This document shows, one piece after another, positions 18,403 to 47,025 of a stretch of DNA of 64,000 nt. This DNA comes from Halorubrum sp. DM2 (GTDB taxonomy: Archaea; Halobacteriota; Halobacteria; Halobacteriales; Haloferacaceae): assembly GCF_901686465.1 (NCBI RefSeq), contig NZ_LR594487.1, positions 3,113,773 through 3,177,772 on the forward strand, read 5' to 3'. The notes beneath the pieces are model-generated. The model was not told the origin of the DNA and did not search any database. It saw nothing but the letters and a program-made list of their open reading frames with translations. The stretch's first letter is position 1; every line of letters starts with the position of its first letter. The position numbers were made by a program, and so were the translations under genes.

Positions 18403-18405
18403 GGG

Positions 18406-23833: not shown

Positions 23834-23843
23834 CATTGTTATA
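23834..23843 (-). promoter_or_regulatory. TAACAATG element, diacetamido-uronate operon
   Basis: Exact TATAACAATG on the minus strand, starting 43 nt before ATG 23800, implying a leader of about 9 nt if transcription starts 34 nt after its first base. The same 10-mer occurs at 30228. Confidence 0.5.
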
Positions 23844-24211
23844 GAGAGGCTTGCCGCGGTACGACGGGCATACTCGACCGCCGACGCCGCCGGTCGTCCC
23901 CCCGGGAACCCCCGTCCGTCGGGGGCGATTCCCGCGTCTCCGGGCCGTCTCCGGTCGATCAGAGCGCCCTCGCGAGGCGTCGCCCGGTGCGACGAGGAAC
24001 GACGGCTCCGTCCGTGGGGGCCGCGACCGCGAACGGAGGAATCGAACCCAAAAACCGGAATAAAGCGGGGATTAGCGGACGGAACGGCGAAGTAAGGTGA
24101 CGCGGAAACCAGGCCCGGTCTCCCCGTGTCGCGTTCGCGGTCGGAAGGTCCGCGCCCGAACCGATCGCCGCGATTGGTGTGTACAGGCGCTATGTCGCGG
24201 AGTATGTCCAT
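23844..24211. other. divergent intergenic region without recognised gene
   Basis: About 370 nt between two divergent promoters. Open frames here are GC-rich shadows without family resemblance. No RNA gene or repeat recognised. Confidence 0.5.
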
Positions 24212-24221
24212 CGTAACAATG
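24212..24221 (+). promoter_or_regulatory. TAACAATG element, CARDB surface protein gene
   Basis: CGTAACAATG starts exactly 34 nt before ATG 24246 and supports that start over upstream in-frame codons. Confidence 0.5.
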
Positions 24222-24245
24222 TCGGTATCCCCCGCAGATCCTCGC

Positions 24246-26021
24246 ATGAACCTCACGGGAATACAGGTGGCAGCGGTGTTGGTGATCGTAGTCGGCGGGA
24301 GCGTCGGGGCCGCGTCGGTCGTCGACCTCGGCGGCGGAGAGCCGCTGACCGTCGACGGGTCAGAGGTCGTGAAATCGAGCGCCGGCGACGCCGCGTTCGA
24401 GGTGCGGGCCACGCTCAACAACACCGGCGCGACGAACGCGACGCGGTCGCTCGAACTCGTCGTCGAGGACGAGAGCGGCTCCGCGCTCACCGTCGACGAG
24501 CGGAGCGCGACGCTCGCAGCGGGAGAGGTCCGGGTCCTCACGCTGTCGGCTCCGAGAGACGCGGTGACCGCCGGGCGGTACAACTACACGCTCAGCGAGG
24601 GCGGGGAGGCGCTAGCGACGGGGACCGTCTCCCTCGACCGGCCGACGTTCACCGTTTCGGCGGCCGGCGCGGACCCGGTCGTCCGCGGGGAGACCGGGAC
24701 GGTCACCGCGACCGTCCGCAACGGCGGCGACTTCCGCGGCCTGCGGACCGTCGACCTCTCGATCGACCGGAACGACGACGGCGCGTTCGACGACGGCGAA
24801 ACCGTCGCGACGAGGTCGCCGCTGCTCGACGCCGGGAGCGACGCGTCCCTCCGGTTCTCGGTCGCGACCGACGGTCTCGAACCCGGGCGATACGCGTACC
24901 GCGTCGAAACGGAGGAGAGCGCTCGGGAGGGGACGCTGGTCGTCGAGCGACCGGCGACCGTCCGCATCGCGAACTCGACGCTGACGTCCGACGCCGTCCG
25001 GGGCGACCGGTTCAACGGGTCGGTGACGCTGGCGAACCTCGGTGACGTTCCCGGTACCGAGACGGTTCGCCTCGACGGGCCGAGCGAGGCGTTCGACTGG
25101 AACCGGACGGTGACGCTCGGCGGGAACGAGACGACGACGTACGAGTTCGACGCCGCGACGGCGAACCTCACCCGCGGGAACTACTCGGTCGCAGTGACGA
25201 CGGCGAACGACTCGGCGTCGACGACGCTCCGCGTCCGCGAGGGCTTCCTCAAGGTCGACCGGCTCGACGGGCCGGGGTCGGCCGACGTGGACGACGACAT
25301 CCGGTTCTCGGCGCGCGTGACGAACATCGGCGACGCGGCCGCGAACGAGACCGTCGAACACCGGATCGACCTGGACGGCGACGACGATCCGGAGACGGTG
25401 ACGGCGAACTCGACGGTCGACCTCGCGCCGGGCGAGCGGACGACCGTCGAGTTCGCGATCGCCGCCGACGACCGGGACCGGTTCAGCGACCGGGACCTGC
25501 TCGGCACGCACGTCCACGGCGTCTACACCGGGGACGCCAACGCGACCGACGTCGTAGTGATTCGGGAGTACCGCTCGGGCGGGGGCGGCTCGTCGGCGTC
25601 GCCTTCTGCGGACGACGAGCCGGAGACGGTCTCGAAGGATGCGATCACCCAAGAGAAGTACGGCCTCGACTACGACGAGGTCAGCGGCGAGACGCAGTCG
25701 CAGGTCGACGAGATCCACGAGCGGCAGCCGTTCGCGGGCGACCTCGTCATCACCGAGGTGCTGACCCGCGAGGAGATCGCGCGTCAGGAGTTCGGGCTCG
25801 ACGTTAAGCGGAACGACAAGTTCGACTTCACCGCCATCGACGTGGAGACCCAACAGGAGATCGAGGCGGAGTTCGACGCGCAGTTCGAGTCCGACGACGG
25901 CGACCGGATCGACTCGTGGGACGAACTGGCGCAGGCGCAGTTCGGGAGCGAGTACGAAGCGCTCGACGAGAGCCAACAGGAGTCGATCCGCGAGCAGTAC
26001 CGAGCCCAGTTCGACTCCTGA
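24246..26021 (+). CDS. secreted CARDB-type protein with C-terminal helical repeats
   Basis: 591 residues. A signal peptide (MNLTGIQVAAVLVIVVGGSV) precedes about four immunoglobulin-like beta-sandwich modules of CARDB type, with phrases such as VEVRATLNNTGATNATRSLE-like FEVRATLNNTGATNATRSLE, GTVTATVRNGGDFRGLRTVD, NGSVTLANLGDVPGTETVRL and RFSARVTNIGDAAANETVEH. Many N-x-S/T sequons are present. After a Gly/Ser linker (about residue 445) come three diverged 30-residue helical units, for example SKDAITQEKYGLDYDEVSGE and WDELAQAQFGSEYEALDESQ. Similar units end the convergent neighbour. Likely cell-surface; no C-terminal anchor is seen. Confidence 0.82.
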   Translation: MNLTGIQVAAVLVIVVGGSVGAASVVDLGGGEPLTVDGSEVVKSSAGDAAFEVRATLNNTGATNATRSLELVVEDESGSALTVDERSATLAAGEVRVLTLSAPRDAVTAGRYNYTLSEGGEALATGTVSLDRPTFTVSAAGADPVVRGETGTVTATVRNGGDFRGLRTVDLSIDRNDDGAFDDGETVATRSPLLDAGSDASLRFSVATDGLEPGRYAYRVETEESAREGTLVVERPATVRIANSTLTSDAVRGDRFNGSVTLANLGDVPGTETVRLDGPSEAFDWNRTVTLGGNETTTYEFDAATANLTRGNYSVAVTTANDSASTTLRVREGFLKVDRLDGPGSADVDDDIRFSARVTNIGDAAANETVEHRIDLDGDDDPETVTANSTVDLAPGERTTVEFAIAADDRDRFSDRDLLGTHVHGVYTGDANATDVVVIREYRSGGGGSSASPSADDEPETVSKDAITQEKYGLDYDEVSGETQSQVDEIHERQPFAGDLVITEVLTREEIARQEFGLDVKRNDKFDFTAIDVETQQEIEAEFDAQFESDDGDRIDSWDELAQAQFGSEYEALDESQQESIREQYRAQFDS

Positions 26022-26082
26022 GACCGCGGTTCGACGCCTGAGATTCGCCTGTTTTCGCGGGCGACGCGACGCTCGCCGACGG

Positions 26083-27282
26083 CTACGACGGGCCGTCGAC
26101 GAACTGCGCGCGGTAGAGGGTCGCGATCTCTTCGCTCGTCTCCTCGCTCAGCTCCGAGAAGGACATCTCGTAGCGCATCCGCGAGAGCTCGTCTTTCGTG
26201 AGTTTGTCGTCCGCGTCTTGCCGGTCGTGGACCGCCCGCACGAGCCGCGCGGTCGGACCGCTCAGTTCCTCGAACGAGATCCCGTACGCGGTCCGCGATA
26301 TCTCGTCGAGCGATCGCGTCTCGTTTTCCGGCACCGGTTCCGCGTCGATCGCCGACTCGTTGATCGTTACGCTCAGGTCGTACGGACCGCTCCCGCCCTC
26401 GACCGCCGCCACGGCGACGTAGTACAGCTCGCCCTCTTCGGCGGTGAACCGGACGCCGGCGGGAGTGCCGGAGCCGACGTACCGCGTCGCGGTGTCGGTC
26501 TCCGCTCCGGCGGGGGCGGTGTCGACGTTCAGCACCGAGACGCCGTCTGACGACTCTCGGTCGATCGTGACGGAGACCGGGACCGTCACGGACCGCGGGT
26601 ACTCCGGCGTCCGGTAGTCGGGGACCGTGAACGCGTAGTAATCGAGGTCCCCGCCGCCGAGCCCGGCCGAGACAGTCGCGTTGCGCCCGGTGTCGGTGGC
26701 GGTGAACTCGACCCACGTCGCGTTCTCGCGGTCGTCGTTCGGCTCGTCCGGAACGTCGCCGGTCCGCTCTACTTCGAGCGAGAGTTCGAACGTCCCGCTG
26801 GCGCGGATGTCGGTGCTCCCGACGAAGACCGTCGCTCGTCCCGGCGTCTTCGTCGTCGCGTTGAACCGCCCGGTCTCCCCGCTCCGGACGGGGAGCCCCA
26901 TGCTATTAGGTGCCGCATTGCCGTCGGGCATCTCGGCCCGGACCGTCGAGGTGTAGACCATCGACGAGTCCGCCGGTTCGCCGAGCGCGAACTCGACCGT
27001 GGCCGTCTCGCCCGGCTCGATGTCGAACGCGTAGCTCGGGAACGCCGACAGGTTCCCGGTCACCGTCTCGCCCGGCTCGATCACTTCGGGACCGCCGTCG
27101 GTCTGATGCTGGATGTCCCCTGACGACGCCGGTTCGCCGTCAGGCCCGTCGGCGACGGCTCCTCCGTCACCGGCGTCCGAGACGGGACCGCTCGCCCCGT
27201 AGACGCCGGCAGCCACCCCGCCCGTCGCGACGAGGCAGACGGCGAACAGTACGACGAGCCGCTTCGTGGGTCTCCGTGACAT
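26083..27282 (-). CDS. secreted PPC-like protein with the same C-terminal helical repeats
   Basis: 399 residues. N-terminal signal peptide (RLVVLFAVCLVATGGVAAGV), then an acidic stretch and two beta-sandwich modules resembling bacterial pre-peptidase C-terminal domains: GETVTGNLSAFPSYAFDIEP and DEPNDDRENATWVEF, GGGDLDYYAFTVPDY, GVRFTAEEGELYYVAVAAVE. Two helical repeat units close the protein: SLDEISRTAYGISFEELSGP and TKDELSRMRYEMSFSELSEE. It is convergent with the CARDB gene that shares these units. Function unknown; a surface adhesin or scaffold is a guess. Confidence 0.8.
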   Translation of the reverse strand: MSRRPTKRLVVLFAVCLVATGGVAAGVYGASGPVSDAGDGGAVADGPDGEPASSGDIQHQTDGGPEVIEPGETVTGNLSAFPSYAFDIEPGETATVEFALGEPADSSMVYTSTVRAEMPDGNAAPNSMGLPVRSGETGRFNATTKTPGRATVFVGSTDIRASGTFELSLEVERTGDVPDEPNDDRENATWVEFTATDTGRNATVSAGLGGGDLDYYAFTVPDYRTPEYPRSVTVPVSVTIDRESSDGVSVLNVDTAPAGAETDTATRYVGSGTPAGVRFTAEEGELYYVAVAAVEGGSGPYDLSVTINESAIDAEPVPENETRSLDEISRTAYGISFEELSGPTARLVRAVHDRQDADDKLTKDELSRMRYEMSFSELSEETSEEIATLYRAQFVDGPS

Positions 27283-27311
27283 AAGCGGGCGGCCACGTGA
27301 CCTCCCCTCCT

Positions 27312-27321
27312 CATTGTAATT
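27312..27321 (-). promoter_or_regulatory. TTACAATG element, PPC-like gene
   Basis: AATTACAATG on the minus strand begins 39 nt before ATG 27282, followed by the purine-rich GAGGAGGGGAGG. Confidence 0.4.
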
Positions 27322-27446
27322 CGGGGCGTAGCGAGGGTAAGGCGGCCGTAGCGCGAGCGGGCGAGCGATACCCGCGTCTTACCCGCCTGACGGCGGTCGG
27401 ACGCGACCCGTCGACCGGAGCCGGTCGTCGAACCCGGCTTCGCTCG

Positions 27447-28664
27447 CTACCGGCCGGGAGCCGGCGCGTGTACCGCGGACGCCTCCTCTGCGATCCGCGG
27501 CAGCGCCTCGGGCGGGACGCGGATCACCGATCCCGCGTCGCTCCGCGCGTTGAACGGGTTCACGAACAGGCCCATCTCCTCGTCGGCGGCGAGGAAGCCG
27601 TACGCGCTGGCGGTCGGAACGCCGGGGAGACGCTCTCCCAGCGGTCGGCGGCGGCGGAACGCGGCCAGCTCGTACCACGTCTCGTACGACGACGCGGAGG
27701 AGGCGACCAGCACCCGCGCGGTGTCCCCGCTCCGGTTCGCACGGCCCGCGGGTGCGGTGCTGTCCGCGCCGACCTCGGCCGCGGTCGCGACGGCGACCCA
27801 GAGCTCGCCGTCGACCGGCAGCGTCGCCGCGTAGTATGCCGACGCGTCGGTGCGGCCGATCGTCTCCGGCTCCGCCGGGCCGTCGCGTCGCAGCCGCAGC
27901 AGTTCCACGCGCTCCGCGTACGAGCAGTCCATCCCCCACAGCACGGCCCGGGGGGTGAACGCCAGCCCGACGGCCCGCCACCGCTGGCTCCCGCTCCCGA
28001 CGCGGACGAACTCGCCGCCGTCGAGGCGACCGACGGCGCTCTCGTCGTCCGCGTCGCCGGATGTCGCCCACAGGTCGTCTCGATAGGGGTCGTCGAAGAC
28101 GCCGTGGAAGTGGCGAACGGCGGTCGTCTCGACGTGGGTCTCCCAGCTCCGGCCGTCGTCCCGGCTCCGGAGGATCCGTGCGGGATCGTCACCGAGCGTA
28201 TACTCGGCGAGGTACACGTCGCCGCCGTGGAGGCAGACCGACGTCGGGAGGACGCCCATCGGGCCGGAAGAGTCGGGGAGTCGGTGGACCGGCTCCCACG
28301 ACCGTCCGCGGTCGTCGGACCGGAACACTCGCCGGCCGACCGTCGCGAGCAGCGTACCGCCGCGGAGCGGCCACAGGTTCGTCGTCGTCCACGAGCCGAC
28401 GAGCGGGCGCAGGGCGCGCTTCGCGAGCCGCCCGTGTCGCAGCCGGAACGCGGCGTCCGGGCCGCCGTCGCCCGGCGTCGGAAGGGTTCCGACCGCGACG
28501 CGCCCCTCCGACGGGGTCCAGGTCCCGACCGTTCGACCGCGGGTCCAGTAGAGCCGCCCGTCGCGGACCCCGCCGATCCGCGCCTCCGGCCCGAGACCGA
28601 GCGGGTCGCCGTACCCGTCGGCGACTCCGCGCTCGGTCGCCCGCTCGGAGTGGGTTCGACTCAT
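27447..28664 (-). CDS. beta-propeller protein with Asp-box (BNR) motifs
   Basis: 405 residues, no signal peptide. Asp boxes of the sialidase/BNR type are visible as FRSDDRGRSWEPVHRL (about residue 115) and LRSRDDGRSWETHVET (about residue 165), with repeated beta-blade phrases (GGTLLATVGRRVF, GGDVYLAEYTLGDDP, DGELWVAVATAAEV). It is probably a six- or seven-bladed propeller, binding or acting on a glycan. ATG 28664 is preferred; GTG 28673 adds three residues. It follows the Gfo/Idh gene by a few nt and likely shares its transcript. Confidence 0.75.
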   Translation of the reverse strand: MSRTHSERATERGVADGYGDPLGLGPEARIGGVRDGRLYWTRGRTVGTWTPSEGRVAVGTLPTPGDGGPDAAFRLRHGRLAKRALRPLVGSWTTTNLWPLRGGTLLATVGRRVFRSDDRGRSWEPVHRLPDSSGPMGVLPTSVCLHGGDVYLAEYTLGDDPARILRSRDDGRSWETHVETTAVRHFHGVFDDPYRDDLWATSGDADDESAVGRLDGGEFVRVGSGSQRWRAVGLAFTPRAVLWGMDCSYAERVELLRLRRDGPAEPETIGRTDASAYYAATLPVDGELWVAVATAAEVGADSTAPAGRANRSGDTARVLVASSASSYETWYELAAFRRRRPLGERLPGVPTASAYGFLAADEEMGLFVNPFNARSDAGSVIRVPPEALPRIAEEASAVHAPAPGR

Positions 28665-28674
28665 CACCGGCACG

Positions 28675-29982
28675 TCACCGGTCGGGAGCCGACGCGTCTC
28701 CCGTCGCGTTCGCGGCTGACGCCGCGTTCGGCGTCGCGTCGTTTGCGTCGCCTACGCCGTCGGCGTCGTTCGCGGCGTCCGCGGCGTCCGCGTCTTCCGG
28801 GTCACCTCCGTCGCTCGCGTCGTCGTCCTCCGCGTCGTCCGCGGCGGGGCCCAACTGTCCGGACTCGATCATGGCGACGAGCGGGTTGTCCTCGATGTCG
28901 AGCGGGAGGTCGACCCGTCCCCGGCGTCGGGTCGACTCCCAGGCGGCGAAGATCACCTCCGTCGCTCGGAGCGCGTTCCGGCCGGAGAGCTCCGGTTCCA
29001 CGTCTCGGTTCAGTCCCTCGACCGCGTCGGCGATCGCCCGCTCGATGAAGATCGGAGCCGTCCGGTCCGCGGTCGAGACGAGCGGGAGCCGCGATCGGAT
29101 CTTCCCCAGCGCGGCACCGAGGTACCCCGGCGAGTCGCGGCCGTGGAGGTTCTCGCCGTCCGTGTCGACCGACTTCCACTTCCCGCCGTCCGTCCGGTAC
29201 CGGAGCGTCGGCCCGTCCTCGACGCCGAGTTCGATCGTACCGTCCGCGCCGACGATCCGGAGGTAACACGCCCCCGGCGGCGCGGAGTCGCCGGTCGTGG
29301 CGAGCCCGAACGTCCCGTCGGCGTAGCGCCACTGGACGAGCGCCTGCGTGGCGTTCGGCGTTCCGAACCAGCGGTTCTCCTCCCGGTAGTCGACCTGCGC
29401 CGCGACCCAGTCGACGTCGGCCCCGTCGGTGAAGAACTGACAGAGGTCGACCTGGTGGATCCCGGCGTCGAACAGCGTCTCGTCCGCGAACTCCAGCCGG
29501 TGTAGCTCGCCGACCTCCCCGTTCGCGAGCAGTCGCTTGGCCTTGCGAAACGGCGCGCCGAACCGCCGCTGGTGGTTGATCGTCAGTTGGACGTCGGCGC
29601 GCTCGCACGTCCGGACCATCTCTCGACAGTCCCCCCAGGTGTCCGCCATCGGCTTCTCGCAGTGGATCGCCGCGACGTGGCCGCTCTCGGCGCAGTCGAC
29701 GACGATGTCGGCGTGAATCCCCGGGGGGACGCAGACGCTCACGAGGTCCGGCTCGACCGCCGCGATCATCTCCGCGTAGTCCTCGTAGACGGCGTCCGCG
29801 CCGAGGTCGAACGTCCGGGCGAACGCCTCACCGTTCTCGGGGACGATGTCCGCGCACGCGACGAGCTCGCACTCCGCGTTGTTCGCGTAGGCGCGCCCGT
29901 GACGATACCCCATCGCGTAGCCGTCTCGACCGGGGTCAGAGGGGTCCGGACCTGTGCCGATGACCGCGACGTCGTAAACCAT
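28675..29982 (-). CDS. Gfo/Idh/MocA oxidoreductase with long acidic tail
   Basis: 435 residues. Rossmann domain MVYDVAVIGTGPDPSDPG, with GYRHGRAYANNAECELVACA and the catalytic EKP in VAAIHCEKPMADTWGDCREM (about residue 118), then INHQRRFGAPFRKAKRLL and FDAGIHQVDLCQFFTDGADV (substrate His/Asp). About 60 C-terminal residues are a repetitive Asp/Ala/Asn-rich tail not expected for the family. It would oxidise or reduce a sugar or sugar nucleotide. TATACTC lies about 34 nt upstream of ATG 29982, so its promoter differs from the TAACAATG set. Confidence 0.85.
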   Translation of the reverse strand: MVYDVAVIGTGPDPSDPGRDGYAMGYRHGRAYANNAECELVACADIVPENGEAFARTFDLGADAVYEDYAEMIAAVEPDLVSVCVPPGIHADIVVDCAESGHVAAIHCEKPMADTWGDCREMVRTCERADVQLTINHQRRFGAPFRKAKRLLANGEVGELHRLEFADETLFDAGIHQVDLCQFFTDGADVDWVAAQVDYREENRWFGTPNATQALVQWRYADGTFGLATTGDSAPPGACYLRIVGADGTIELGVEDGPTLRYRTDGGKWKSVDTDGENLHGRDSPGYLGAALGKIRSRLPLVSTADRTAPIFIERAIADAVEGLNRDVEPELSGRNALRATEVIFAAWESTRRRGRVDLPLDIEDNPLVAMIESGQLGPAADDAEDDDASDGGDPEDADAADAANDADGVGDANDATPNAASAANATGDASAPDR

Positions 29983-30261
29983 TTCGGCCGGAGAACGCCG
30001 CCGCCGCCCAAAGAGTATAGACCGCCTACCCCGCTCGGCCCGCACCGGCACCCTCCGGGCGCTCCGGGCCGGCACCCTCGGAGGGCCCCTGGCCGCATCG
30101 AACCCGGTCGATCCGTACCGAACCGCACGAATCGCGGACCGCGTCGGGTCAGCGCTCGCGCGAGTGCGCGCACAACAAACCACGTGCCAGCACATCGATC
30201 CGGCGGGCGCACCGCCGGTACGGCTCCTATAACAATGTGCGTCGTCGCGGACACACTCGGT
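29983..30261. promoter_or_regulatory. divergent promoter region with TAACAATG at 30228-30237
   Basis: TATAACAATG (plus strand) begins exactly 34 nt before GTG 30262. On the minus strand TATA at 30016-30019 serves the oxidoreductase. Otherwise nothing is recognised in the 279 nt. Confidence 0.5.
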
Positions 30262-31257
30262 GTGACTCCCCAACCGAGCCCGTCGACCGCCGATCGCCGC
30301 CCCTCCGACGCGGGAGACACCGCGGACGCCGAGGGCGACGAACTCCCGTTCGTCTCGGTCGTGATCCCCGTCTACAACGACCCGGACGGGATCGAAGCGA
30401 CGCTCGACTCGCTCCGCAGGCAGTCGTTCCCCGCAGACCGGTACGAGGTGATCGTCGCAGACAACGGGTCGACGGACGAGACGCGAGACGTCGTCCGCGA
30501 GTTCCTCGGCGCGTTCGACGGCCTCCGACTGATCGTCGAAGACGACGTACAGGGGTCGTACGCCGCCCGAAACGCGGGGATCAGAGCGACGACGGGAGAC
30601 GTGATCGCCTTCGTCGACGCCGACATGGTCGTCGACCCCGGTTGGATCGAGGCGGTGGCGCGGCGGATGGCGCGGACGGACGCGGAATACCTCGCCTGCG
30701 ACGTCCGGCTGTTCACGACCGGCGACGAGGGAGCGGTGGCCGAGTACAACCGGCGCGAGGACCTCCACGTCGAGCGGCTGGTCGACGAGCTCTCGTTCGC
30801 GCCGACCTGCTGTCTGGTCGTCCGTCGGGCGCTCCTCGCGGAGGTGGGCGGCTTCGACCCGCGCCTCCGGTCCGGCGGGGACATGGAGTTCGGGAACCGC
30901 GTCGCGGCGAGCGGTCGCGACCTCGAATACGCCGCGGACGTCGTCATGTACCACCCGACGCGGACGACGCTCGGCGCGCTCCTCGGTAAGTCCAGACGAG
31001 TCGGACGCGGGAAGACCCAACTCCGGCGGCACTACCCCGACCGCTACGGCTCGCCGGTCCTCTCCGCGCTCAACCCCGCCGCGTTCCTGCCGCCGCGCCC
31101 GAGCTTCATGCGGCGGGCGGTGCGCGGCTGGGCGGAGCTGTCCGCCCGCAAGAAGCTCGTCTTCCTCGTCGTGAGCTACGTCGAGTCGCTGGCGAAGGCG
31201 TACGGCCAGCTCCTCGAACTGGCCTCGCCGACGGAGACGAGCGCCGACGCCGACTGA
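30262..31257 (+). CDS. family 2 glycosyltransferase
   Basis: 331 residues. After an acidic 30-residue N-terminus the GT-A domain reads PFVSVVIPVYNDPDGIEATL, VIVADNGSTDETRDVVREFL, GSYAARNAGIRATTGDVIAF, VDADMVVDPGW (DxD) and FDPRLRSGGDMEFGNRVAAS. The C-terminal 60 residues are basic with a hydrophobic segment (KLVFLVVSYVESLAKAYGQL) that could touch the membrane. GTG 30262 is chosen because the TAACAATG element is at -34; ATG 30235 overlaps that element and would add nine unconserved-looking residues. Confidence 0.88.
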   Translation: MTPQPSPSTADRRPSDAGDTADAEGDELPFVSVVIPVYNDPDGIEATLDSLRRQSFPADRYEVIVADNGSTDETRDVVREFLGAFDGLRLIVEDDVQGSYAARNAGIRATTGDVIAFVDADMVVDPGWIEAVARRMARTDAEYLACDVRLFTTGDEGAVAEYNRREDLHVERLVDELSFAPTCCLVVRRALLAEVGGFDPRLRSGGDMEFGNRVAASGRDLEYAADVVMYHPTRTTLGALLGKSRRVGRGKTQLRRHYPDRYGSPVLSALNPAAFLPPRPSFMRRAVRGWAELSARKKLVFLVVSYVESLAKAYGQLLELASPTETSADAD

Positions 31258-31339
31258 CGGAATCGGTCCGCGGACACGTATCGCCGGTCGGGCGGTCCGC
31301 ACCGAGAACGAGTCGAACGCGGCTCGGCGGGACTCCCCT

Positions 31340-31564
31340 CTACGAGTCGTCGTCCCGGAACGCCTCGACGCCCGGGAGGTCGGAGACGCCCTCGTGTTGG
31401 CCGGTGTACTCGGCTCCCTCCGTCGCCGCCTCGAACGTCTCCTCGTCCGGGTACTCGCGGACGGTCAGCACGCGCCCGCCGTCGACGGCGAACACGATCT
31501 CCACGGACCCGTCGTCGTGTCGGTACTCCGCGGCCTTTCTCGCCGAGTCGGCAGGCTCTTTCAT
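31340..31564 (-). CDS. small acidic hypothetical protein
   Basis: 74 residues, MKEPADSARKAAEYRHDDGS onward, with a beta-strand-like core VEIVFAVDGGRVLTVREYPD and an acidic end. I do not recognise a named family; the shape fits small conserved haloarchaeal proteins. ATG at 31562-31564 stands alone. Convergent with the GT2 gene. Confidence 0.6.
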   Translation of the reverse strand: MKEPADSARKAAEYRHDDGSVEIVFAVDGGRVLTVREYPDEETFEAATEGAEYTGQHEGVSDLPGVEAFRDDDS

Positions 31565-31655
31565 TTCTTCGGCGTTCGAGCGTCAACGGCTTACCCGTTT
31601 CGGCCGTGTTCGGCCCGAAACGCCGAGCGTTCGCCGGCTCGGCCGCGGCTCCGGT

Positions 31656-31874: not shown

Positions 31875-31973
31875 GGCTCTCTCCCTCGGCGGTCCGGTCC
31901 GCTCACGGCTCTCGCAGCGGACCCGCCGAGACGCCGAGCGACCGACGGACGGCACTGGTGTGACGCCATCGGT

Positions 31974-35105: not shown

Positions 35106-35456
35106 GGCCGGGATTTCCGAGGTTACTATGATATTCGTTTTCGCCAGTAACTGACCGGGTGGGGACGGATGCCCCCGCTTGGTTACCAAGTGGTGGCCGG
35201 GTGTTACCGGCACCGTTCATTTCACGGTAGGAGGTGTCTACCACCCAACCTATCCGGATAGAATCCAGTAATCCGTTCATAGCCACGAGTAGGACACCCT
35301 TACCGAAGGAAACGGGGGGATCGATTGAGCGATCGTGCCGGCATCGAGATCCAGCGGTCCGCCGGCGCGCAGAGAGGGCCGGCGCGCAGAGAGGGCCACC
35401 GGGAAGGGACCGCGTCGGTCGCGGTCAGTTCCGGTCGCCGCCCGAGGCGACTGCGC
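35106..35456. other. intergenic region with promoter and short tandem duplication
   Basis: 350 nt between the two beta-helix genes. The minus-strand promoter of the larger gene is near 35130-35139. A 17-bp unit gccggcgcgcagagagg is duplicated in tandem at 35361-35377 and 35378-35394. No gene seen. Confidence 0.55.
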
Positions 35457-37229
35457 TCACGGTCGGTTCAGGACCCGCCCGACGGGGACCCCGTCCTCCA
35501 GCGCGTCGACGCCGATCCGGAGCGAGTCGGAGCCGGCGGCCAGCAGCGCGGAGGCGGCGGGACCGAGCCCGAGACAGACGTCGTCGGTCCCGGAGCTTCG
35601 GGCGAGCGTCCGGAGCACGGACGGGTCCGTGAGTTCGATCCCGGACCCGTCGTCGCCGAACCGCTCCAAGACCGTTCCGACGCCGAGACACAGGAGGTCG
35701 TCGTCGGAGTTCGCCGGGTCAACCTCGACGACGACCGGGTGGCCGTCCGTCCGGATCGCGCCCCCGGTCACCGCGCTCTTCGGCGAGCTGTCCAGGAGGA
35801 CCCCGTCCCGGTCCGCGCCGCGGCAGGTTATCTCGCAGTCCGTCACCCTCGATCCCGGTGCCGATTGGAGGTCTATCGCGACGCCCCCGGACGCGTCCCC
35901 GCCGACCGTGACGTTCCGTAGTCGCGTCCAGTGCGGCCCCGGCGGCCGCTGCCGGTCCGGTCGGAACGGGAGCGCTCCCACCGGTCCCCGGCGCACCGCC
36001 GGCGTCCCGTCGATGTCACAGCGGATCTCCGTGTCGCGGACGGTGAGGTTCCGGGCCACCGGCGACTGTTCGATGACCGACTGCGACAGCGGCGACGAGC
36101 GAGCGTGGAGCGTACAGCCGCGGATCTCCGCGCCGCCCGGAAGCGCCGGTGCGTCCGTCCGCTGGATGCCCTGCTCGACGACGATCGCCCGGGTGTTGAA
36201 CTCCGTCGAGGTGTCTACCGTCCCGCCGGTGTATCTGTCGAGGTCTATCTCGACCGTACAGTTCTCGACGTAGCTCCCCGCGCCGCCGATGCGCGGGCCG
36301 CAGACGTTGTTGTTGAGGAAGTAGCAGCCGACGACCTCGACGTTCCCGGGCGTTCGGGAGCCGTACACGCCGTTGTTACCGAACTCGCGGAAATCGCAGT
36401 TCTCGATGCGGACCGTCCCCTTGTTCGACCAGCCGACCCACACGCCTATCCGACCGTTTCCGCCCTCGTATCCGTCGATCCGAGACCCCTTCTTCGCCAC
36501 CACGTTCCGCAGGACTCCGCGCCCGTTCTCGCTGCGGACCGCGAGGAGGAACGCGCTCGTCGTCCCGCCGGACGAGGGGTTCGTCCCGCGCCCGACGAAC
36601 TCGACGTTCTCGACGTGAAAATGGTGCCGACAGTTGAGCCGGATTCCGGCCGTCGTCGCCGGCGCGCGGATATCGATATCGACGTTCTCGACGAGGACGT
36701 CGTCGACGGCCGCTCCCTGTCCGTCGAACAGCAGTCTGTCGAACCCGAAGTCTGGGGAGAGTTCGACGGCCTCCAGTCCGAGAATCCCGACGCGCTCGGC
36801 GTCGAGGGACACGGAACCGCCGAACCGGTAGCTCCCCTTCGGAAACGCCAGCAGCGTCCCGTCGTTCGACAGCGCGTCCTCGACGTCGTCCTCCGCCGCG
36901 ACCTCGCCCGACGGGTCCAGTCCGAGGTCGTTGACCGCGTTCAGCACCCGGTCGAACTCGATCCCGTGGCGGCTACCGAGCCGGTCCGCGTCGAACTCGA
37001 TCCGTGCGCCGTCGCCGTCCGTTCCGTTTCCGGACGCGTCCGCTCCCGGATCGGCCGAGCCGTCTGTCGGTTCCGCGGAGTTCCCGTCCAGACAGCCGGC
37101 GACCGACGCCGCGGCGGCACCGAGGGCCGCGAGGTAGGGGCGTCTGCCGCAGCGTCGCTCGGGGTCGCCGCCGAGATTCGCCCCTCCGGTCCGGTCGTCG
37201 GAGCCGCCGTCGTCTGACTTCCGGTTCAT
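35457..37229 (-). CDS. beta-helix lipoprotein, paralog of the repeat-bearing protein
   Basis: 590 residues. RRPYLAALGAAAASVAGC gives a Tat-like lipoprotein signal with lipobox cysteine at about residue 47. The rest is a parallel beta-helix strongly resembling the neighbour at 31974: IEFDRVLNAVNDLGLDPSGE, VLVENVDIDIRAPATTAGIR, GVWVGWSNKGTVRIENCDFR, REFGNNGVYGSRTPGNVEVV and YFLNNNVCGPRIGGAGSYVE. It lacks the C-terminal repeats. The start overlaps the stop of the phosphatase-family gene (ATGA). Local duplication followed by domain gain or loss is inferred. Confidence 0.85.
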   Translation of the reverse strand: MNRKSDDGGSDDRTGGANLGGDPERRCGRRPYLAALGAAAASVAGCLDGNSAEPTDGSADPGADASGNGTDGDGARIEFDADRLGSRHGIEFDRVLNAVNDLGLDPSGEVAAEDDVEDALSNDGTLLAFPKGSYRFGGSVSLDAERVGILGLEAVELSPDFGFDRLLFDGQGAAVDDVLVENVDIDIRAPATTAGIRLNCRHHFHVENVEFVGRGTNPSSGGTTSAFLLAVRSENGRGVLRNVVAKKGSRIDGYEGGNGRIGVWVGWSNKGTVRIENCDFREFGNNGVYGSRTPGNVEVVGCYFLNNNVCGPRIGGAGSYVENCTVEIDLDRYTGGTVDTSTEFNTRAIVVEQGIQRTDAPALPGGAEIRGCTLHARSSPLSQSVIEQSPVARNLTVRDTEIRCDIDGTPAVRRGPVGALPFRPDRQRPPGPHWTRLRNVTVGGDASGGVAIDLQSAPGSRVTDCEITCRGADRDGVLLDSSPKSAVTGGAIRTDGHPVVVEVDPANSDDDLLCLGVGTVLERFGDDGSGIELTDPSVLRTLARSSGTDDVCLGLGPAASALLAAGSDSLRIGVDALEDGVPVGRVLNRP

Positions 37230-38896
37230 CGGTACCCGAGTCCGCGGAGGCGCTCCTCGACCGCCTCGTCGCTTCCCGGCCCGTCGGTCGCGGCGGCGGA
37301 CCCGCGGCGGTCCAGTCTGGTCACCTCGCGAGTCGCCGGCGGCGAACCGGGTTCGAACGCCTCCGACAGGACTCGACCCTGCGCGGCCGTCGGAACCGGC
37401 TCGCCGAGCCCGTGGAGCAGGGTCGGCGTCACGTCGACGACCGAGGCACCCTCCACCGTGGCCCCGGCCGCTATCGAGGGGCCGCGGGCGAAGAACACGC
37501 CCTCCGGGCGGTGGTAGCCGGCGATCCCGTCGGCGTCGACGACGGCCTCGTCGGCGAGTCCGGGCTTGACGTGGTACCCCTCGACGCCCTCGACGACCAC
37601 GTCGGGGGCGAACTCGTCCTCCGGATTGAGGTCGTCGCCGTCGTGAACCGAGAGCACCGGATCGCCGGTCTCGGGGTCCGTGAGCGCCGAGAGCGCGGCC
37701 ATCACGTCGGCCTTGACCCGGTCGCGGTCGGCCGGGTCGACGGCCCCGTCCTCGAAGCGATCGGTGTCGTTGACGTACACGCTTCCCAGCCCGTGGAGGA
37801 ACGCCCGCGTCCGCTCGGAGTCGACGTCGTAGAGGGCGTGGTCGCCGGGGACGGTCCGGGCCGCCCTGTCGACGACGGACGCGGGGAGCCGCTCGACGAG
37901 CGTCTTGTCGTCGACGCCGATCCGCGCCAGCGCACTCAGGACGCGCGACTTTGTCATCCCGGTCCGCGAGAGCGCGGCCCGGAGTCCGGTCGGCTCCTTC
38001 GGCGTCAACAGCCCGGCGTCCGCTAGCGCCCGGTTCACGTTGACGATCCGCGAGACCGGCCCGAACCCGTGGTCGGAGACGACGTAGAGGGTCGCGTCCA
38101 GCCGGTCGCAGTACGCCATCACCTCCCCGAGGACCGCGTCCAGCTCTCGGTAGTGGTCCAGGAGTACGTCCTCGTCCCAGATCAGGTGTTGGAGCCGGTC
38201 GGGCGCGGTGAACGTGAAGAAGAACAGCCGCCAGTCCTCCCGCTCCATGAGCGACCGCAACAGCTCGCGGCGCGCCGCGAACAGCGCCGCGAAGTCCTCC
38301 CGGAACTCCTCGCGTCGGTCGTCACCGTACCGGTGCCACTTGAGGCCGACGCGGTACTCCGGAATGCGCTCGCGGATCTCCTCGCCCAACGCCGGCGGGT
38401 AGGTGAACCCGTCCGCGTCGGACGTCGGCGTCATCATCCCGGCGACCATCGTCCCGTCCTCGCCGACGCCGCCGGCGGGGTACGTCATCGGGACGTTCGC
38501 GACGATCGCCGGCGAGAGCAGCTCCCACAGCGGGGGCACTCGGAGGTCCGTCCGGTTGTACGGCCGTTGGCTGTGGTCGGCGTCGAGCTTCGTGAACTCG
38601 TACAGGCCGTGGCGGTCGGGCCAGGTACCCGTCGCGATGGAGGGCCACGCGACCGGCGTGTTCGCCGGCGTCGTACTCCGGAGCGGTCCGGCGGCCCCCT
38701 CGGCGACTAACTGGGCGAACGCGGGTAGCTCGCCCGCCTCGGTCCACCGGTCGACGAGCGACCACGGGACGCCGTCGAGACCCAGAACGAACGCGCGGTC
38801 GCCGGCTTCGCTCACCGGAACCGCCCCCGTCGACACGGGTCGATCCGAATCATCGTGCCCCGCTTCGCGAGGGATCCCGTTTGTTATGCTTGTCAT
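37226..38896 (-). CDS. alkaline phosphatase superfamily protein (type I phosphodiesterase-like)
   Basis: 556 residues, no signal peptide. Metal and nucleophile region: FVLGLDGVPWSLVDRWTEAG (Asp) and STTPANTPVAWPSIATGTWP (Thr candidate, about residue 75), with TLYVVSDHGFGPVSRIVNVN (Asp-His) and EGYHVKPGLADEAVVDADG further on (His). Similar archaeal proteins are phosphodiesterases or phosphoglycan-modifying enzymes. CATAACAAAC overlaps the first codons, so the true start may be GTG 38836, which would lose 20 disordered residues. 31 nt downstream of the lyase-like gene. Confidence 0.82.
   Translation of the reverse strand: MTSITNGIPREAGHDDSDRPVSTGAVPVSEAGDRAFVLGLDGVPWSLVDRWTEAGELPAFAQLVAEGAAGPLRSTTPANTPVAWPSIATGTWPDRHGLYEFTKLDADHSQRPYNRTDLRVPPLWELLSPAIVANVPMTYPAGGVGEDGTMVAGMMTPTSDADGFTYPPALGEEIRERIPEYRVGLKWHRYGDDRREEFREDFAALFAARRELLRSLMEREDWRLFFFTFTAPDRLQHLIWDEDVLLDHYRELDAVLGEVMAYCDRLDATLYVVSDHGFGPVSRIVNVNRALADAGLLTPKEPTGLRAALSRTGMTKSRVLSALARIGVDDKTLVERLPASVVDRAARTVPGDHALYDVDSERTRAFLHGLGSVYVNDTDRFEDGAVDPADRDRVKADVMAALSALTDPETGDPVLSVHDGDDLNPEDEFAPDVVVEGVEGYHVKPGLADEAVVDADGIAGYHRPEGVFFARGPSIAAGATVEGASVVDVTPTLLHGLGEPVPTAAQGRVLSEAFEPGSPPATREVTRLDRRGSAAATDGPGSDEAVEERLRGLGYR
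38879..38888 (-). promoter_or_regulatory. TAACAA element near the phosphatase-family start
   Basis: CATAACAAAC lies just downstream of ATG 38896 and 52 nt upstream of the alternative GTG 38836. If active, it argues for the later start. Confidence 0.3.
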
Positions 38897-38927
38897 ACTC
38901 GCCTGAGCCGTCAGTAACGGTCGAACG

Positions 38928-40160
38928 TCACCCGAGGTCGAGCTCGAAGCGATTGGCGTGGGTCAGCGTCGTCCACCCGAGGATCCGCCGCTCGTACAGC
39001 GGCCGCCCCATCGACTCGACGACGCGCCGGAACTCGGGGCGGGACCACCGCGAGTGCGCGAGCTCGTACACCGACCCCGCCGCCGTCCGGTCCGTGTCGG
39101 TGTACCCGTTCTCGCCGGTCCCCCACTCCCACTCGTCGGCGTCGAGCACGTACGGCCGATGGCCTTCGAAGGCTCGGCAGAGCGCGCTCTCGTCGTCTCC
39201 CGGGAGGCGGTAGCCGTAGAGGTCGACGCCGTAGTGGCGGGCGATCTCCGCGGTGAGGGTCAGCGCCTTCAGCCCGTACACCGAGTACTCCAGCCCGTCG
39301 ACCCGTCCGATCTCGTGTTTCAAGAGGCCGTCCGGCTGGAGCTGGTCGAGCGCGCGCTCGCGCCAGTCGCCGAACGCCAGCGACAGCGCGTCGCGGTCGT
39401 CGAGGTAGGCCGCCGCGGTCGCTCGCGCGAGGATCCACCAAGCGTAGATGTTGTTTTTGACCGTTCCGACGTACCGCTGTTCCCCTCGCCCGGCTTCGAG
39501 GTCAGCGAGGTACGTCTCGACCCACGTCCGGAGCTCCGCCCGGTCGGCCTCCGCGGTCGACCACTGCGGGGAGTCGCGGACGAGCGCCGCGCCGTACAGG
39601 AGCGTCGGAACGGTGATGTGGAGTTCGATCGAGAAGTACGTCTCGCCGAAGTTCCGACCGGAGGGATACATCCGCGTGTCGGGGTCGAGAAACCAGTGGT
39701 CGAGCAGCTCGATCGCCTCGCGGGCGAACCGTTCCTCGGACGTGAACGCGTACGCCAGCCCGAGGTCGCGGACCCGCGTACCCATCTCGATCGCGGCCTG
39801 GTAGTCGGGGCGCTCCTCGCCGGTCGCGAACCGATTCTCGTCGACGCCGTCCGGAGAGCCGTCGTCGACGACGCTCAACGGCGTCGCGCCGAGCGCGCGC
39901 TCCGCGTCGCGCAGCTGGGCGTCGTACGCCGACCGCCAGGGCTCCTCGTCGTCGCCCACCCGGTCCCGGACCGCGACCACCTCGTTGCCGTCGAGGAACC
40001 CGGCGTACACGGCGGGATCGTCTCGGATCTCTTCGGGCGCGCCGGAGTCGGTCGTGTTCGACCCGGAGCCGCAGCCGGCGAGGACCCCCGCGGCCCCGAG
40101 CGCCGCGGCCCCGCGCAGGAGGTCGCGACGCGAAGCCCCGTCGCCGTCGCGCTCGGTCAC
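38928..40160 (-). CDS. alginate-lyase-like Tat lipoprotein
   Basis: 410 residues. N-terminus SRRDLLRGAAALGAAGVLAG followed by C gives a Tat lipoprotein signal. The remainder is an alpha/alpha barrel resembling the alginate lyase family: AIELLDHWFLDPDTRMYPSG (about residue 160), GETYFSIELHITVPTLLYGA, VKNNIYAWWILARATAAAYL (NN-x5-W type motif, about residue 245) and LLKHEIGRVDGLEYSVYGLK. It probably cleaves a uronic-acid-containing polysaccharide outside the cell, consistent with uronate synthesis elsewhere in the window; the substrate is inferred. Start overlaps the propeller gene by 4 nt. Confidence 0.82.
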   Translation of the reverse strand: MTERDGDGASRRDLLRGAAALGAAGVLAGCGSGSNTTDSGAPEEIRDDPAVYAGFLDGNEVVAVRDRVGDDEEPWRSAYDAQLRDAERALGATPLSVVDDGSPDGVDENRFATGEERPDYQAAIEMGTRVRDLGLAYAFTSEERFAREAIELLDHWFLDPDTRMYPSGRNFGETYFSIELHITVPTLLYGAALVRDSPQWSTAEADRAELRTWVETYLADLEAGRGEQRYVGTVKNNIYAWWILARATAAAYLDDRDALSLAFGDWRERALDQLQPDGLLKHEIGRVDGLEYSVYGLKALTLTAEIARHYGVDLYGYRLPGDDESALCRAFEGHRPYVLDADEWEWGTGENGYTDTDRTAAGSVYELAHSRWSRPEFRRVVESMGRPLYERRILGWTTLTHANRFELDLG

Positions 40161-41329
40161 CGTTCACCGTCGCGCTCGTTGTGCCAGACGTCGACGTGGT
40201 GGTCGGGGGTGTACGACTTCCCGACGACGTCCGGGAGGCCGGTGCCGGTGAGGTCCACCGCCTTCGCCTCGTGGGTCTCGACGCCCTCCGCGACGACGGT
40301 CCGCTCGAACTGCCCGTCGCCCTCGTTTCTGAACACGTAATGTCTCGGGATCCGGTTCTCGCCGAGACTCATCTCCGCCGCGTAGACGTCGAGTCGGCCG
40401 TTTCCGTCGAAGTCGGCCAGTTGGAGGCTGTGTGGACAGAACAGCCCGTCCGCGATCACCGTCTCCTCCCACCCGTCGTCTCGGCGGTCGAACAGCCCGA
40501 CCCGCCCGGGGTGGGTCCCGTAGGTGGGGGAGTCCCCCTCCGCGAGAACGACCTCGTACTCGCCGTCGGCGTCGATGTCCCCGACCGCGACGCGGACATC
40601 GTCCCAGTCGACGGCGATCGGCTCGCGGTCCCACTCGTGGGTCCCCTCGCGGCGACGGTAGAGGTCCGTGCCGACGACGAGCTCCGTCCGACCGTCGCCG
40701 TCGAGGTCGCCGATCCACACCCCCTCGGCGTCGCTGTCCCCGTCGACGACGTGACAGTTCTCCGCGGGCCACGGGCCGTCGGTCGGGTCCGCGGGAACGT
40801 CGTAGTAGAACACCGTGTCGGAGCGCTGTGAGAGCCCCACGACCTCCGGCTCGCCGTCGTCGTCGACGTCGCCGAACGCGAGGTCGTGGTACTTCTCGAA
40901 CCGGTCCGTGACCAAGTGCCGCTCCCAGCTTCCGCGCGGGTCCGACGGCTGTTCGAACCAGAAGACCCCGTTGTAGTGGATCCCCTGTCCGGCGAGGACG
41001 TCGACGCGGCCGTCGCCGTCGACGTCGCCGAGCGCGCAGCCGACCCCGAGCTGCGGGACGTCGGAGATGGCGTGTCGCTCCCAGCCGGGGTTCTCGTACC
41101 AGAACAGCGTCGGCCCGGCGAGACCCGTCGCCTGCTTGATCCCCTCCACGCTCGGCAGTCGGGTCCGCCCTCCGGCCACGAACAGCTTCGTCTCCGGGCC
41201 GGCACCGCCGACGATAACGTCCGGGCGACCGTTACCGGTGAGGTCCGTCGTCAGGCAGATGCCGAGCTTGGTCGTCGGAGGAGCCGAGTCGATGACTTCG
41301 TGGCGGAAGCCGTGTCGTTGTGTCTGCAT
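40157..41329 (-). CDS. FG-GAP/VCBS repeat beta-propeller protein
   Basis: 390 residues with about six calcium-loop repeats: LTTDLTGNGRPDVIVGG, ALGDVDGDGRVDVLAGQ, AFGDVDDDGEPEVVGLS, WIGDLDGDGRTELVVGT, AVGDIDADGEYEVVLAE and QLADFDGNGRLDVYAAE. This is an integrin-alpha-like propeller with D-x-D-x-D-G loops. No signal peptide is visible although the operon partners are exported. ATG 41329 lies exactly 34 nt after the TAACAATG element, so a longer N-terminus is unlikely. First gene of a minus-strand unit continuing into the lyase, phosphatase and beta-helix genes. Confidence 0.88.
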   Translation of the reverse strand: MQTQRHGFRHEVIDSAPPTTKLGICLTTDLTGNGRPDVIVGGAGPETKLFVAGGRTRLPSVEGIKQATGLAGPTLFWYENPGWERHAISDVPQLGVGCALGDVDGDGRVDVLAGQGIHYNGVFWFEQPSDPRGSWERHLVTDRFEKYHDLAFGDVDDDGEPEVVGLSQRSDTVFYYDVPADPTDGPWPAENCHVVDGDSDAEGVWIGDLDGDGRTELVVGTDLYRRREGTHEWDREPIAVDWDDVRVAVGDIDADGEYEVVLAEGDSPTYGTHPGRVGLFDRRDDGWEETVIADGLFCPHSLQLADFDGNGRLDVYAAEMSLGENRIPRHYVFRNEGDGQFERTVVAEGVETHEAKAVDLTGTGLPDVVGKSYTPDHHVDVWHNERDGER

Positions 41330-41353
41330 GGATCCGACCTGGGGGGTGATCGG

Positions 41354-41363
41354 CATTGTTACC
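41354..41363 (-). promoter_or_regulatory. TAACAATG element, propeller-lyase-phosphatase-beta-helix unit
   Basis: GGTAACAATG on the minus strand begins exactly 34 nt before ATG 41329. Confidence 0.5.
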
Positions 41364-41388
41364 GATCGCCTACGCGCCCCCTCGGGGG

Positions 41389-42894
41389 TCAGATCGCCCC
41401 GGCGAAGTTCCGGAGCGTCTCGCGCAGTTCCCAGTTCAGCTGGGTCTCGAACAGCCCGACCGCGGCCCCATACACCGCGACGCCGGCCGCGACGAGGACG
41501 ACCAGTTCGAGGATCGCCCATTCGAGCGTCAGCGTGGCCTGGAGCCAGAGGACGACCCCGCCCATGAGGAGGCTCGCGACGGCCGGGTAGGCAATCTCTC
41601 TGAGCAGCCGACCGAGGCTCGTCTCGACCGACTTGATCACGAGGTACACGTCGATCGGCATCACCGGGAAGACGTAGACGCCGAGGACGGCCGCCGCGGT
41701 CCCCACGATTCCGAACTCGCGGGTGACTGGAATGATGATCGCCGCCGTCAACACGAGCCGGAAGACGCCAAGTTTCGCCATGTAGTCGGGGCGACCGAGC
41801 GCCTTCCACACCGGCGAGTACGCCGACCCCAGCGCGATGAGGAGGCCGTACACCGCGACGATCTGCATCACCGGCACCGCCGGCCCCCACCCGGGTCCGA
41901 GGACGGCCTCGACGAAGGTCGGCGCGACGACCCCGATCCCCACTGAGGCGGGAAACGCGATCACCATCGTCACCTGAAGCGTTCGGTAAAACGCCGACCT
42001 GAGGGCGGGGATGTCGTCTTGAAGCTGGGAGTACGCCGGAAAGGCGACGCTCGAAATGATCTGCGAGATCTCCGTCGCCGGTGCCTTGGCAAACTGGTAC
42101 GCGACCTGATATAATCCGAGCGACGTGGCGGACAGTAGCCATCCGATGACCGCGTCGTCACCCTGATTAATGACGAAGTAGACGCTCTCGGAGCCGGTGA
42201 TCCACTTCCCGAACCCGAACAGGTCGCGGGCGATGTCGAGGTTGAGTTCGGGCCACGGGCGGTAGCCGTGGACGGCGTACGACGCCAGCAATCGCGCGGC
42301 GTCGGAGGCGATGTATCCCAAGACGAGCGCCCAGACGCTCTGCGTCGCGAGCGCGACCGCGAGCGCGACGACGAAGTTCGTCAGCGAGCCGCTCATCGTG
42401 TAGACGAACTGCTTGTGGAACTCGAGGTTCTTCCTGAAGTAGACGATACCGGGATTGCGAAGCCCTAAGAGTAGCGGCGTGAGCGCGATGGCCCGGAGGA
42501 TCGGGGTGGCGCGGGGCTCACCGAAGAAGCCCGCGACGAAGGGCGCGACGCCCACGAGGATGCCGGCGAGCAGGAGTCCGCGGAGGATCTCGATGCTCCA
42601 GTAGGTGTTGAGATAGCCGTCGACGTTCCCCGACGCCTTCTGGATGAGCGCCTGATCGAACCCGATGTTCGAGAACCGCTTGAACGCCGTCAGCGTCAAC
42701 AGGGCGATACCGAGCAGGCCGAAGTCCGCCGGCGAGAGCATCCGGGCGAGGATCGCGATCATCAGCAGCTGTAGGCCGCGGTCGAGGACGTTCGTTATCG
42801 TGGCCCAGATGCCGCTTTTCACCGTCTGCTCGGTGAGATCGCCGCCGGGCGTGAGGCGGGTGAGAAGCCGTCGGAGTGAAGAGAGCGGTGACAT
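41389..42894 (-). CDS. Wzx-type polysaccharide flippase
   Basis: 501 residues, about 12-14 membrane helices, MVF/MATE-like. N-terminus TVKSGIWATITNVLDRGLQL, then LSPADFGLLGIALLTLTAFK, SNIGFDQALIQKASGNVDGY, NPGIVYFRKNLEFHKQFVYT and FPAYSQLQDDIPALRSAFYR. It would move lipid-linked oligosaccharide across the membrane. A clear paralog lies at 52929. CATAACAATG occurs 54 nt upstream, implying a roughly 20-nt leader. Confidence 0.9.
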   Translation of the reverse strand: MSPLSSLRRLLTRLTPGGDLTEQTVKSGIWATITNVLDRGLQLLMIAILARMLSPADFGLLGIALLTLTAFKRFSNIGFDQALIQKASGNVDGYLNTYWSIEILRGLLLAGILVGVAPFVAGFFGEPRATPILRAIALTPLLLGLRNPGIVYFRKNLEFHKQFVYTMSGSLTNFVVALAVALATQSVWALVLGYIASDAARLLASYAVHGYRPWPELNLDIARDLFGFGKWITGSESVYFVINQGDDAVIGWLLSATSLGLYQVAYQFAKAPATEISQIISSVAFPAYSQLQDDIPALRSAFYRTLQVTMVIAFPASVGIGVVAPTFVEAVLGPGWGPAVPVMQIVAVYGLLIALGSAYSPVWKALGRPDYMAKLGVFRLVLTAAIIIPVTREFGIVGTAAAVLGVYVFPVMPIDVYLVIKSVETSLGRLLREIAYPAVASLLMGGVVLWLQATLTLEWAILELVVLVAAGVAVYGAAVGLFETQLNWELRETLRNFAGAI

Positions 42895-42938
42895 GGTGCG
42901 GTCGGTATAGTACTGTTCCCGAGAACCCGCGTCGAGGG

Positions 42939-42948
42939 CATTGTTATG
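42939..42948 (-). promoter_or_regulatory. TAACAATG element, flippase gene
   Basis: CATAACAATG on the minus strand starts 54 nt before ATG 42894; the first base after the usual 34-nt spacing is 42914. Confidence 0.4.
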
Positions 42949-43050
42949 AACGCGTTACCGGCCCGAGACGGCGGTGTCGTCGACTGTGATACGGTCGCAC
43001 ATACGCGGCCGCCGTGCCGCGCCGGCCGGCCGGAGCGGCGTAACGGCCGT

Positions 43051-43060
43051 CCTAACAATG
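43051..43060 (+). promoter_or_regulatory. TAACAATG element, GT2 gene
   Basis: CCTAACAATG begins exactly 34 nt before ATG 43085 and forms a divergent pair with the flippase element. Confidence 0.5.
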
Positions 43061-45924: not shown

Positions 45925-45934
45925 CTTTGTTATG
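45925..45934 (-). promoter_or_regulatory. TAACAA promoter element, glmS leader
   Basis: CATAACAAAG on the minus strand begins 33 nt before the leader ATG at 45901 and about 100 nt before glmS itself. Confidence 0.45.
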
Positions 45935-47001: not shown

Positions 47002-47025
47002 GGCCGTTTGCGGGATCAGGCGGGT

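Follow-up and report, generated by a model that had tools for sequence, protein, structure and literature searches.

The 64-kb window examined here (64,000 nucleotides of contig NZ_LR594487.1 of the archaeon Halorubrum sp. DM2) contains a 42-kb gene island in which almost every transcription unit appears to start from a shared two-part promoter signal. The full element is approximately 19 bp long and has the form KTARS-N7-(A)TWACRAW, an upstream half-site and a downstream core. Within the host genome it is nearly exclusive to the island, and it is kept before orthologous genes in six other Halorubrum genomes. From its sequence and position, the element may be a non-canonical leaderless core promoter that coordinates an island for extracellular glycan and depends on a winged-helix activator, a reading that we give an even chance of being correct.

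A preliminary description of the window had placed the 8-mer TAACAATG before six genes or operons, and all six copies are found at the positions given: 23834-23841 (-), 24214 (+), 30230 (+), 41354-41361 (-), 42939-42946 (-) and 43053 (+). Fewer than one copy had been expected by chance; the computed expectation for the window is 0.04, and six copies were reached in 0 of 100 shuffles. The fixed start-codon distance claimed for four of the genes also stands, the core T being exactly 32 nt before the start codons of 24246, 30262 (GTG), 41329 and 43085, and of 14652 as well. At the other two sites the distance is 41 nt (23800) and 52 nt (42894), corresponding to the proposed leaders of 9 and 20 nt, and the related strings that had been placed near 14618 and 27312 are TTACAAT at 14620 (+) and 27313-27319 (-). 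The 8-mer thus marks a promoter-position element of glycan and surface genes, as had been suggested, but it is only half of a longer bipartite element. As a genome-wide motif it was rejected, since the bare string is not enriched (19 copies in the 3.45-Mb genome, compared with 17 of the reversed string) and copies beyond the window are mostly TAA-CA-ATG stop-start junctions. Six of the 19 copies lie within the window, which is 1.85% of the genome (binomial P ~9e-7, for a window picked post hoc).

Such junctions, and an in-frame ATG inside the 8-mer at several island sites, are what would be seen if the string were a translational or coding feature, with the internal ATG as the real start or the copies arising as stop-start junctions or by chance. 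We hold this to be highly improbable: in orthologues TAACAATA/C/T or TAACAAA stands in its place, the downstream start being unchanged; the core falls ahead of the coding region; the upstream half is conserved; and the clustering is far above chance. The eighth base (G) of TAACAATG differs among orthologues, and for this reason the ATG inside it was rejected as the start codon.

The extent of the element emerges from the comparison with related Halorubrum that the preliminary description had proposed. Genes between 5.4 and 51.5 kb of the window are syntenic, mostly with 60-90% identity, in H. cibi (G007), H. coriense (G008), H. sodomense (G029) and two further genomes (G022 and G043), and the island is partly syntenic in Halorubrum sp. 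CBA1125 (G041). Aligned upstream regions of orthologues keep two blocks, GTA(A/G)(C/G) and TWACAAT, and footprints across four to six genomes retain core and half-site as the spacer between them drifts (orthologous loci are not independent of each other). The KTA half lies one helical turn (11-12 bp) upstream of the core, which itself occupies positions -32 to -26 relative to the start codon, 31-33 nt downstream. At 68 loci, a set with duplicates in which some genome regions are counted twice, KTARS lies 12 nt before TAACAAW in 50 cases and 13 nt before it in 10, as against no more than 2 for any of 24 other offsets and 0 at 12 and 13 in the reversed control. An ATG is found at +31 to +33 in 68 of 102 sites with a half-site, and in 33 of the 57 non-redundant elements that remain once similar sequences are removed. 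These 57 were selected by half-site offset and letter classes; spacing to the ATG and A at -1 were not selection criteria. Their logo reads KTA at -12 to -10, S at -8, A at -1 and then T-A/T-A-C-A/G-A-A/T, the 7 nt upstream of the core being variable and mostly GC-rich. The two halves do not form an inverted repeat. The strict spacing of 31-33 nt between core and ATG implies that the start codon would lie at the transcription start site.

Genome-wide searches place the element almost entirely in the island. The pattern GTA-N9/10-TAACAA has nine sites, eight of them inside the window (P ~1e-13; reversed control 7). The generalised form KTANS-N7-TWACRAW has 15 sites, nine of them inside, the copies elsewhere all lacking an ATG at +31-34. 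TWACAAW-N25-ATG, in which the core is exactly at -32 of the ATG, has five sites (four in the window) with a reversed control of 6, so the pattern by itself is weak and it is the clustering that carries the weight. None of 165 upstream regions of random genes, drawn from 360 kb elsewhere in the genome, contains the core TWACAAW; taken with the four of five TWACAAW-N25-ATG sites in the window, this answers the concern that the motif might be equally common before housekeeping genes.

The same 165 regions served as the sample of ordinary leaderless promoters of this genome, which have their AT peak at -29 to -26. The element therefore occupies the register of the B recognition element (BRE) and TATA box of leaderless genes, where it had been placed from the outset. 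Also borne out is the remark that the string is not a usual TATA box: no TTWT box is seen near -27 in the element promoters, where the sequence is TWACRAW. Canonical haloarchaeal promoters consist of a BRE (CGAAA), a TATA box (TTWT) and a -10 WW (PMC4983044). The island promoters resemble these in their register relative to a leaderless start codon, transcription probably starting some 31-33 nt downstream of the core, but differ in that the core is TWACRAW rather than TTWT, in having an extra KTARS one turn upstream and in being limited to particular loci. Neither is an A-rich BRE (CGAAA) found directly upstream of the core in the 57 elements, where the mostly GC-rich variable 7 nt stand.

Beyond Halorubrum, the element lies upstream of FG-GAP homologues (50-60% identity) in Haloarcula, Halogranum, Halogeometricum, Halobellus and Halorientalis, with the upstream half mostly TTA, not GTA. 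Across the order, 144 of the 293 genomes searched, representing 52 of 87 genera, have KTA-N9-TWACAAW-N25-ATG (reversed control 34 genomes by our count). Among the matches listed, 79 non-redundant hits have A at -1 in 66% of cases and a TAACAA:TTACAA ratio of 67:12; both preferences fit the Halorubrum logo, and neither was part of the search pattern. Sampled hits precede genes for GT2, DegT, GFO/IDH, WecB-type epimerase, CARDB and DUF7344 proteins, and also unrelated genes, so the element class is wider than glycan genes. Among the hits, several genomes of one genus (G219, G070, G174, G309, G242 and others) share a nearly invariant promoter, GTAACGGGGGTGTAACAAAACGGTACCCCGGGTTTCGTGTATATATG, that is conserved far beyond the element, and many genomes of another family carry TTAAC-N7-ATAACAAAG at -32 of a conserved 132-aa membrane-like protein (L237-L240, L242, L243 and L245; the L237 copy has no Pfam match).

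Spread over 52 of 87 genera would suit a widely conserved factor, and the register is exactly that of BRE and TATA box. Both observations fit an alternative basal promoter in which one conserved haloarchaeal transcription factor B (TFB), or a pair of TFB and TATA-binding protein (TBP), recognises KTARS-N7-ATAACAAW directly, the island being its regulon without a gene-specific activator. In haloarchaea, multiple TFBs could define promoter classes, and genomes of the genus have roughly 6-12 TFB and 2-5 TBP genes. Unlike such TFB/TBP-specified regulons, this island has no TFB or TBP gene linked to it or specific for it: there is none within approximately 85 kb in G000, and none is restricted to island genomes by gene number (paralogue sequences were not compared individually), the island-free G038 having the same numbers as G022, G043 and G008. 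Furthermore, the KTA half is placed about 4 bp further upstream than a BRE normally would be, and half of the sampled genomes have no exact matches, though to our knowledge all haloarchaea carry several TFBs. Direct recognition by a TFB is rather doubtful. The preliminary description had left the choice between one TBP/TFB pair and a DNA-binding activator. A dedicated TBP/TFB was rejected on the absence of a linked or, by number, island-specific gene, though a general paralogue that is widely conserved may yet be involved; an activator appears to fit better.

The regulators inside the island that are kept in all its copies are an EarA/HVO_A0261-like winged-helix protein of 100 aa (11997..12299, +; Pfam HVO_A0261_N 1e-10, EarA 9e-5) and three DUF7344 proteins, at 9533..10063 (+), 46268..46879 (+; orthologue in island genomes only) and 46914..47624 (+). 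A TrmB-type gene at 50712 is conserved, but relocated in H. cibi. The 11997 protein is 85-94% identical across seven of seven island genomes, among the most conserved of island products, and no other genome has a protein above 61%. Its predicted structure (confidence score pLDDT 89.5) is a winged helix resembling MarR/ArsR-type regulators. HVO_A0261_N matches 19 of its 19 homologues and EarA nine of the 19. As for EarA itself, a winged helix-turn-helix protein is thus encoded in or near the regulated locus, assigned clearly by HVO_A0261_N and narrowly by the EarA cut-off.

EarA-dependent archaellum promoters are known in Methanococcus and Pyrococcus (PMC5512572, PMC10665913). EarA is reported to bind a short box, TACATA or A(C/G)(C/G)TACA(T/C), located 9-11 bp upstream of a weak BRE that is followed by a normal TATA box, and has been proposed to act by recruiting TFB (PMC10665913, PMC5512572). 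Common to both systems are a short element at a fixed distance upstream of a weak BRE, cell-surface genes and a winged helix-turn-helix protein of a related Pfam family encoded at the same locus; here, in contrast, the element stands in place of the TATA box itself and is common to many promoters of a single island. A TACATA-like box 9-11 bp above the BRE is not seen, the half-site being KTARS at 11-12 bp above the core.

In the favoured reading, the core would replace the TATA box and set transcription to begin at the start codon or close to it. If the core is a poor site for TBP and TFB, initiation would need a winged-helix activator, which might read KTA just above the BRE position and bring in TBP/TFB, in the manner suggested for EarA at archaellum promoters. 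For this role the 11997 protein is the best candidate, followed by the DUF7344 proteins, with that at 9533..10063 as a second candidate regulator; in distant relatives, paralogues may read a TTA upstream half instead of GTA. An activator-dependent promoter is favoured because of the conservation and winged-helix fold of 11997, the EarA precedent and an association of the half-site with EarA-like genes. Near such genes GTA:TTA is 29:3, compared with 12:23 elsewhere (Fisher 3e-6), and without the island genomes it is 16:3 versus 12:23 (6e-4), in loci chosen partly for carrying EarA-like genes and with related sequences.

That choice of loci counts against the activator reading, and three other points do so as well: an activator contacting -32 to -26 would be expected to compete with TBP; the EarA model match of the 11997 protein is barely over the cut-off (22.7 versus 22 bits); and genomes such as those of H. 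kocurii, H. salsamenti and H. aquaticum have TAACAAT clusters and no close homologue of the EarA-like protein. Missing from several genomes that carry the element, this protein cannot be the universal reader and was rejected as such. DUF7344 as sole regulator was likewise rejected, for it is present in 52 of 52 genus genomes and is not found in the neighbourhood of the FG-GAP genes of Haloarcula and Halogranum. DUF7344 genes lie within 50 kb of 13 of 54 TAACAAT sites outside island genomes, where we estimate 3-4 by chance.

Winged helix-turn-helix genes in the island could also encode a repressor. A winged-helix protein would then cover BRE and TATA box through both halves and block TBP/TFB, TWACRAW would be a weak TATA box and the island would stay off until an inducer appears. 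The region of BRE and TATA box is a common archaeal repressor site, and two TA-containing halves 11-12 bp apart do cover it. However, the distance of a repressor site from the start codon need not be fixed, and a canonical TATA box would normally be present as well, whereas the core here is the sole AT-rich stretch and replaces that box; nor are the halves an inverted repeat. We judge an operator of this kind unlikely. Set against the TFB and repressor explanations combined, the activator-dependent promoter stands at about even odds.

A known surface and motility regulator of haloarchaea whose site also adjoins the basal promoter is CsmR of Haloferax volcanii. CsmR is an Lrp/AsnC protein that uses the semi-palindrome TATCA-N4-TGATA upstream of a normal BRE/TATA (PMC13286277), unlike the island element. 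No description of the element was found in the open-access literature; an earlier description elsewhere is possible.

The activator-dependent promoter can be extended, more tentatively and with the balance of probability against it, to a second order-wide class of core promoter, KTARS-N7-ATAACAAW at 32 nt above a leaderless start, used instead of BRE/TATA. Such promoters would be read by locus-encoded EarA-like winged-helix factors, with GTA/TTA specificity co-varying with the paralogue, in a sigma-like division of promoters. The element offers a precise, testable promoter code for haloarchaeal extracellular-glycan islands, about whose regulation little is known, and bears on the old question of which sequences are recognised by the many TFBs and small winged-helix proteins of haloarchaea. 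With it, operons and start codons can be predicted and a short list of candidate regulators drawn up, and it occurs in genera with genetic systems, such as Haloarcula. Its sharing within the island, its near absence from the rest of the genome and its recurrence in about half of the sampled haloarchaeal genomes point to an uncharacterised mechanism that turns on cell-surface genes.

In total, the window has at least ten bipartite elements and three weaker ones, spread over 7.4-49.1 kb; sites at 7447 (+), 14549 (-), 38886 (-), 45932 (-) and 49089 (+) are additional to those first listed. On the forward strand, GTAGCCGACGGATAACAAA (7435..7453) has the ATG of a small open reading frame (ORF), 7478, at +31, followed by glycosyltransferase 7678; H. 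coriense, H. sodomense, H. cibi and G022 have the same element at the corresponding position. GTAAGCGATCTATTACAAT (14608..14626) precedes the glycosyltransferase-like gene (DUF354) 14652 at +32, with TTACAAT in four of four orthologues; GTATGTCCATCGTAACAAT (24202..24220) and GTACGGCTCCTATAACAAT (30218..30236) precede, both at +32, CARDB surface protein 24246 and GT2 glycosyltransferase 30262 (GTG). The 12-bp variant GTAACGGCCGTCCTAACAAT (43040..43059), kept in six genomes, serves GT2 43085 at +32, and GTAGGTCGTCTATAACGAT (49077..49095) the DUF7511 gene 49126 at +37. On the reverse strand, GTAACCGATGTATAACAAA (14543..14561; footprint in four genomes) has a GTG at +32 that opens a 27-codon leader ORF, and GTATGACAAGCATAACAAA (38880..38898) an ATG at +33 that opens a 13-codon leader ORF before the phosphodiesterase gene (ORF 37226-38896). 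GTAGGCGATCGGTAACAAT (41355..41373) precedes FG-GAP repeat protein 40157-41329 at +32, and GTAACGCGTTCATAACAAT (42940..42958), kept in six genomes, the Wzx-type flippase 41389-42894 at +52. Also on this strand are an element with a variant upstream half (GCAAGCCTCTCTATAACAAT, 23835..23854) before operon 23800-17320, with the start at +41 (+32 in H. cibi), and TTACAATG (27313..27331), with a CTA upstream half and gene 26083-27282 at +37, of which H. sodomense retains core, TA step and spacing. A core alone (TAACAAA, 45926..45932, -), without the KTA half, stands before glmS 44016-45911 (ATG at +31), its cggtccaTAACAAAgta context being the same in relatives. Two transcription units, at 29982 and 35111 (-) (GFO/IDH oxidoreductase and beta-helix protein), apparently have no element; a TATA-like TATACTCT lies about 37 nt upstream of the former.

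Of the two leader ORFs, that with 13 codons (MIRIDPCRRGRFR, 38812-38853, -) begins 33 nt below its element, has exactly 13 codons in five of five genomes and ends in a TGA overlapping the GTG start of the phosphodiesterase gene (GTGA overlap). The 27-codon ORF (VLVHQPIPPEGPRTTRAPRGRKRSDTA, 14434-14517, -) has the same length in four genomes and ends in a GTGA overlap, its TGA sharing bases with the GTG that opens membrane protein gene 12359-14437. Both read as leaderless and driven by the elements at 38886 and 14549, and are probably coupled in translation to their main genes. At order-wide hits L254, L256, L258 and L264, the ATG opens a mini-ORF of 10-24 codons with an ATGA or GTGA overlap with a main gene, these being for DegT, CARDB-type surface proteins and WecB-type epimerase.

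Among the island genes are those for GT2 and GT4 glycosyltransferases, a Wzx-type flippase, beta-helix, alginate-lyase-like and FG-GAP proteins, a phosphodiesterase, a CARDB surface protein, DUF1616 and GlmS. The operon at 17320..23800 (-) encodes a hexapeptide acetyltransferase, DegT aminotransferase, GFO/IDH oxidoreductase, UDP-sugar dehydrogenase, GT2 and WecB-type epimerase (Pfam and NCBIfam), a gene set that by homology we take to be that known for diacetamido-uronic-acid sugars, as in the Wbp pathway, and that would make a UDP sugar of this type. The island probably makes an extracellular polysaccharide or a surface glycan. At its edge (47847-50143), small HalOD1-domain and DUF7511 proteins cluster beside DUF7344 genes and are kept in relatives. 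Between 60001 and 64000, GC content drops from approximately 0.70 to 0.55, suggesting a recently acquired segment adjoining the island.

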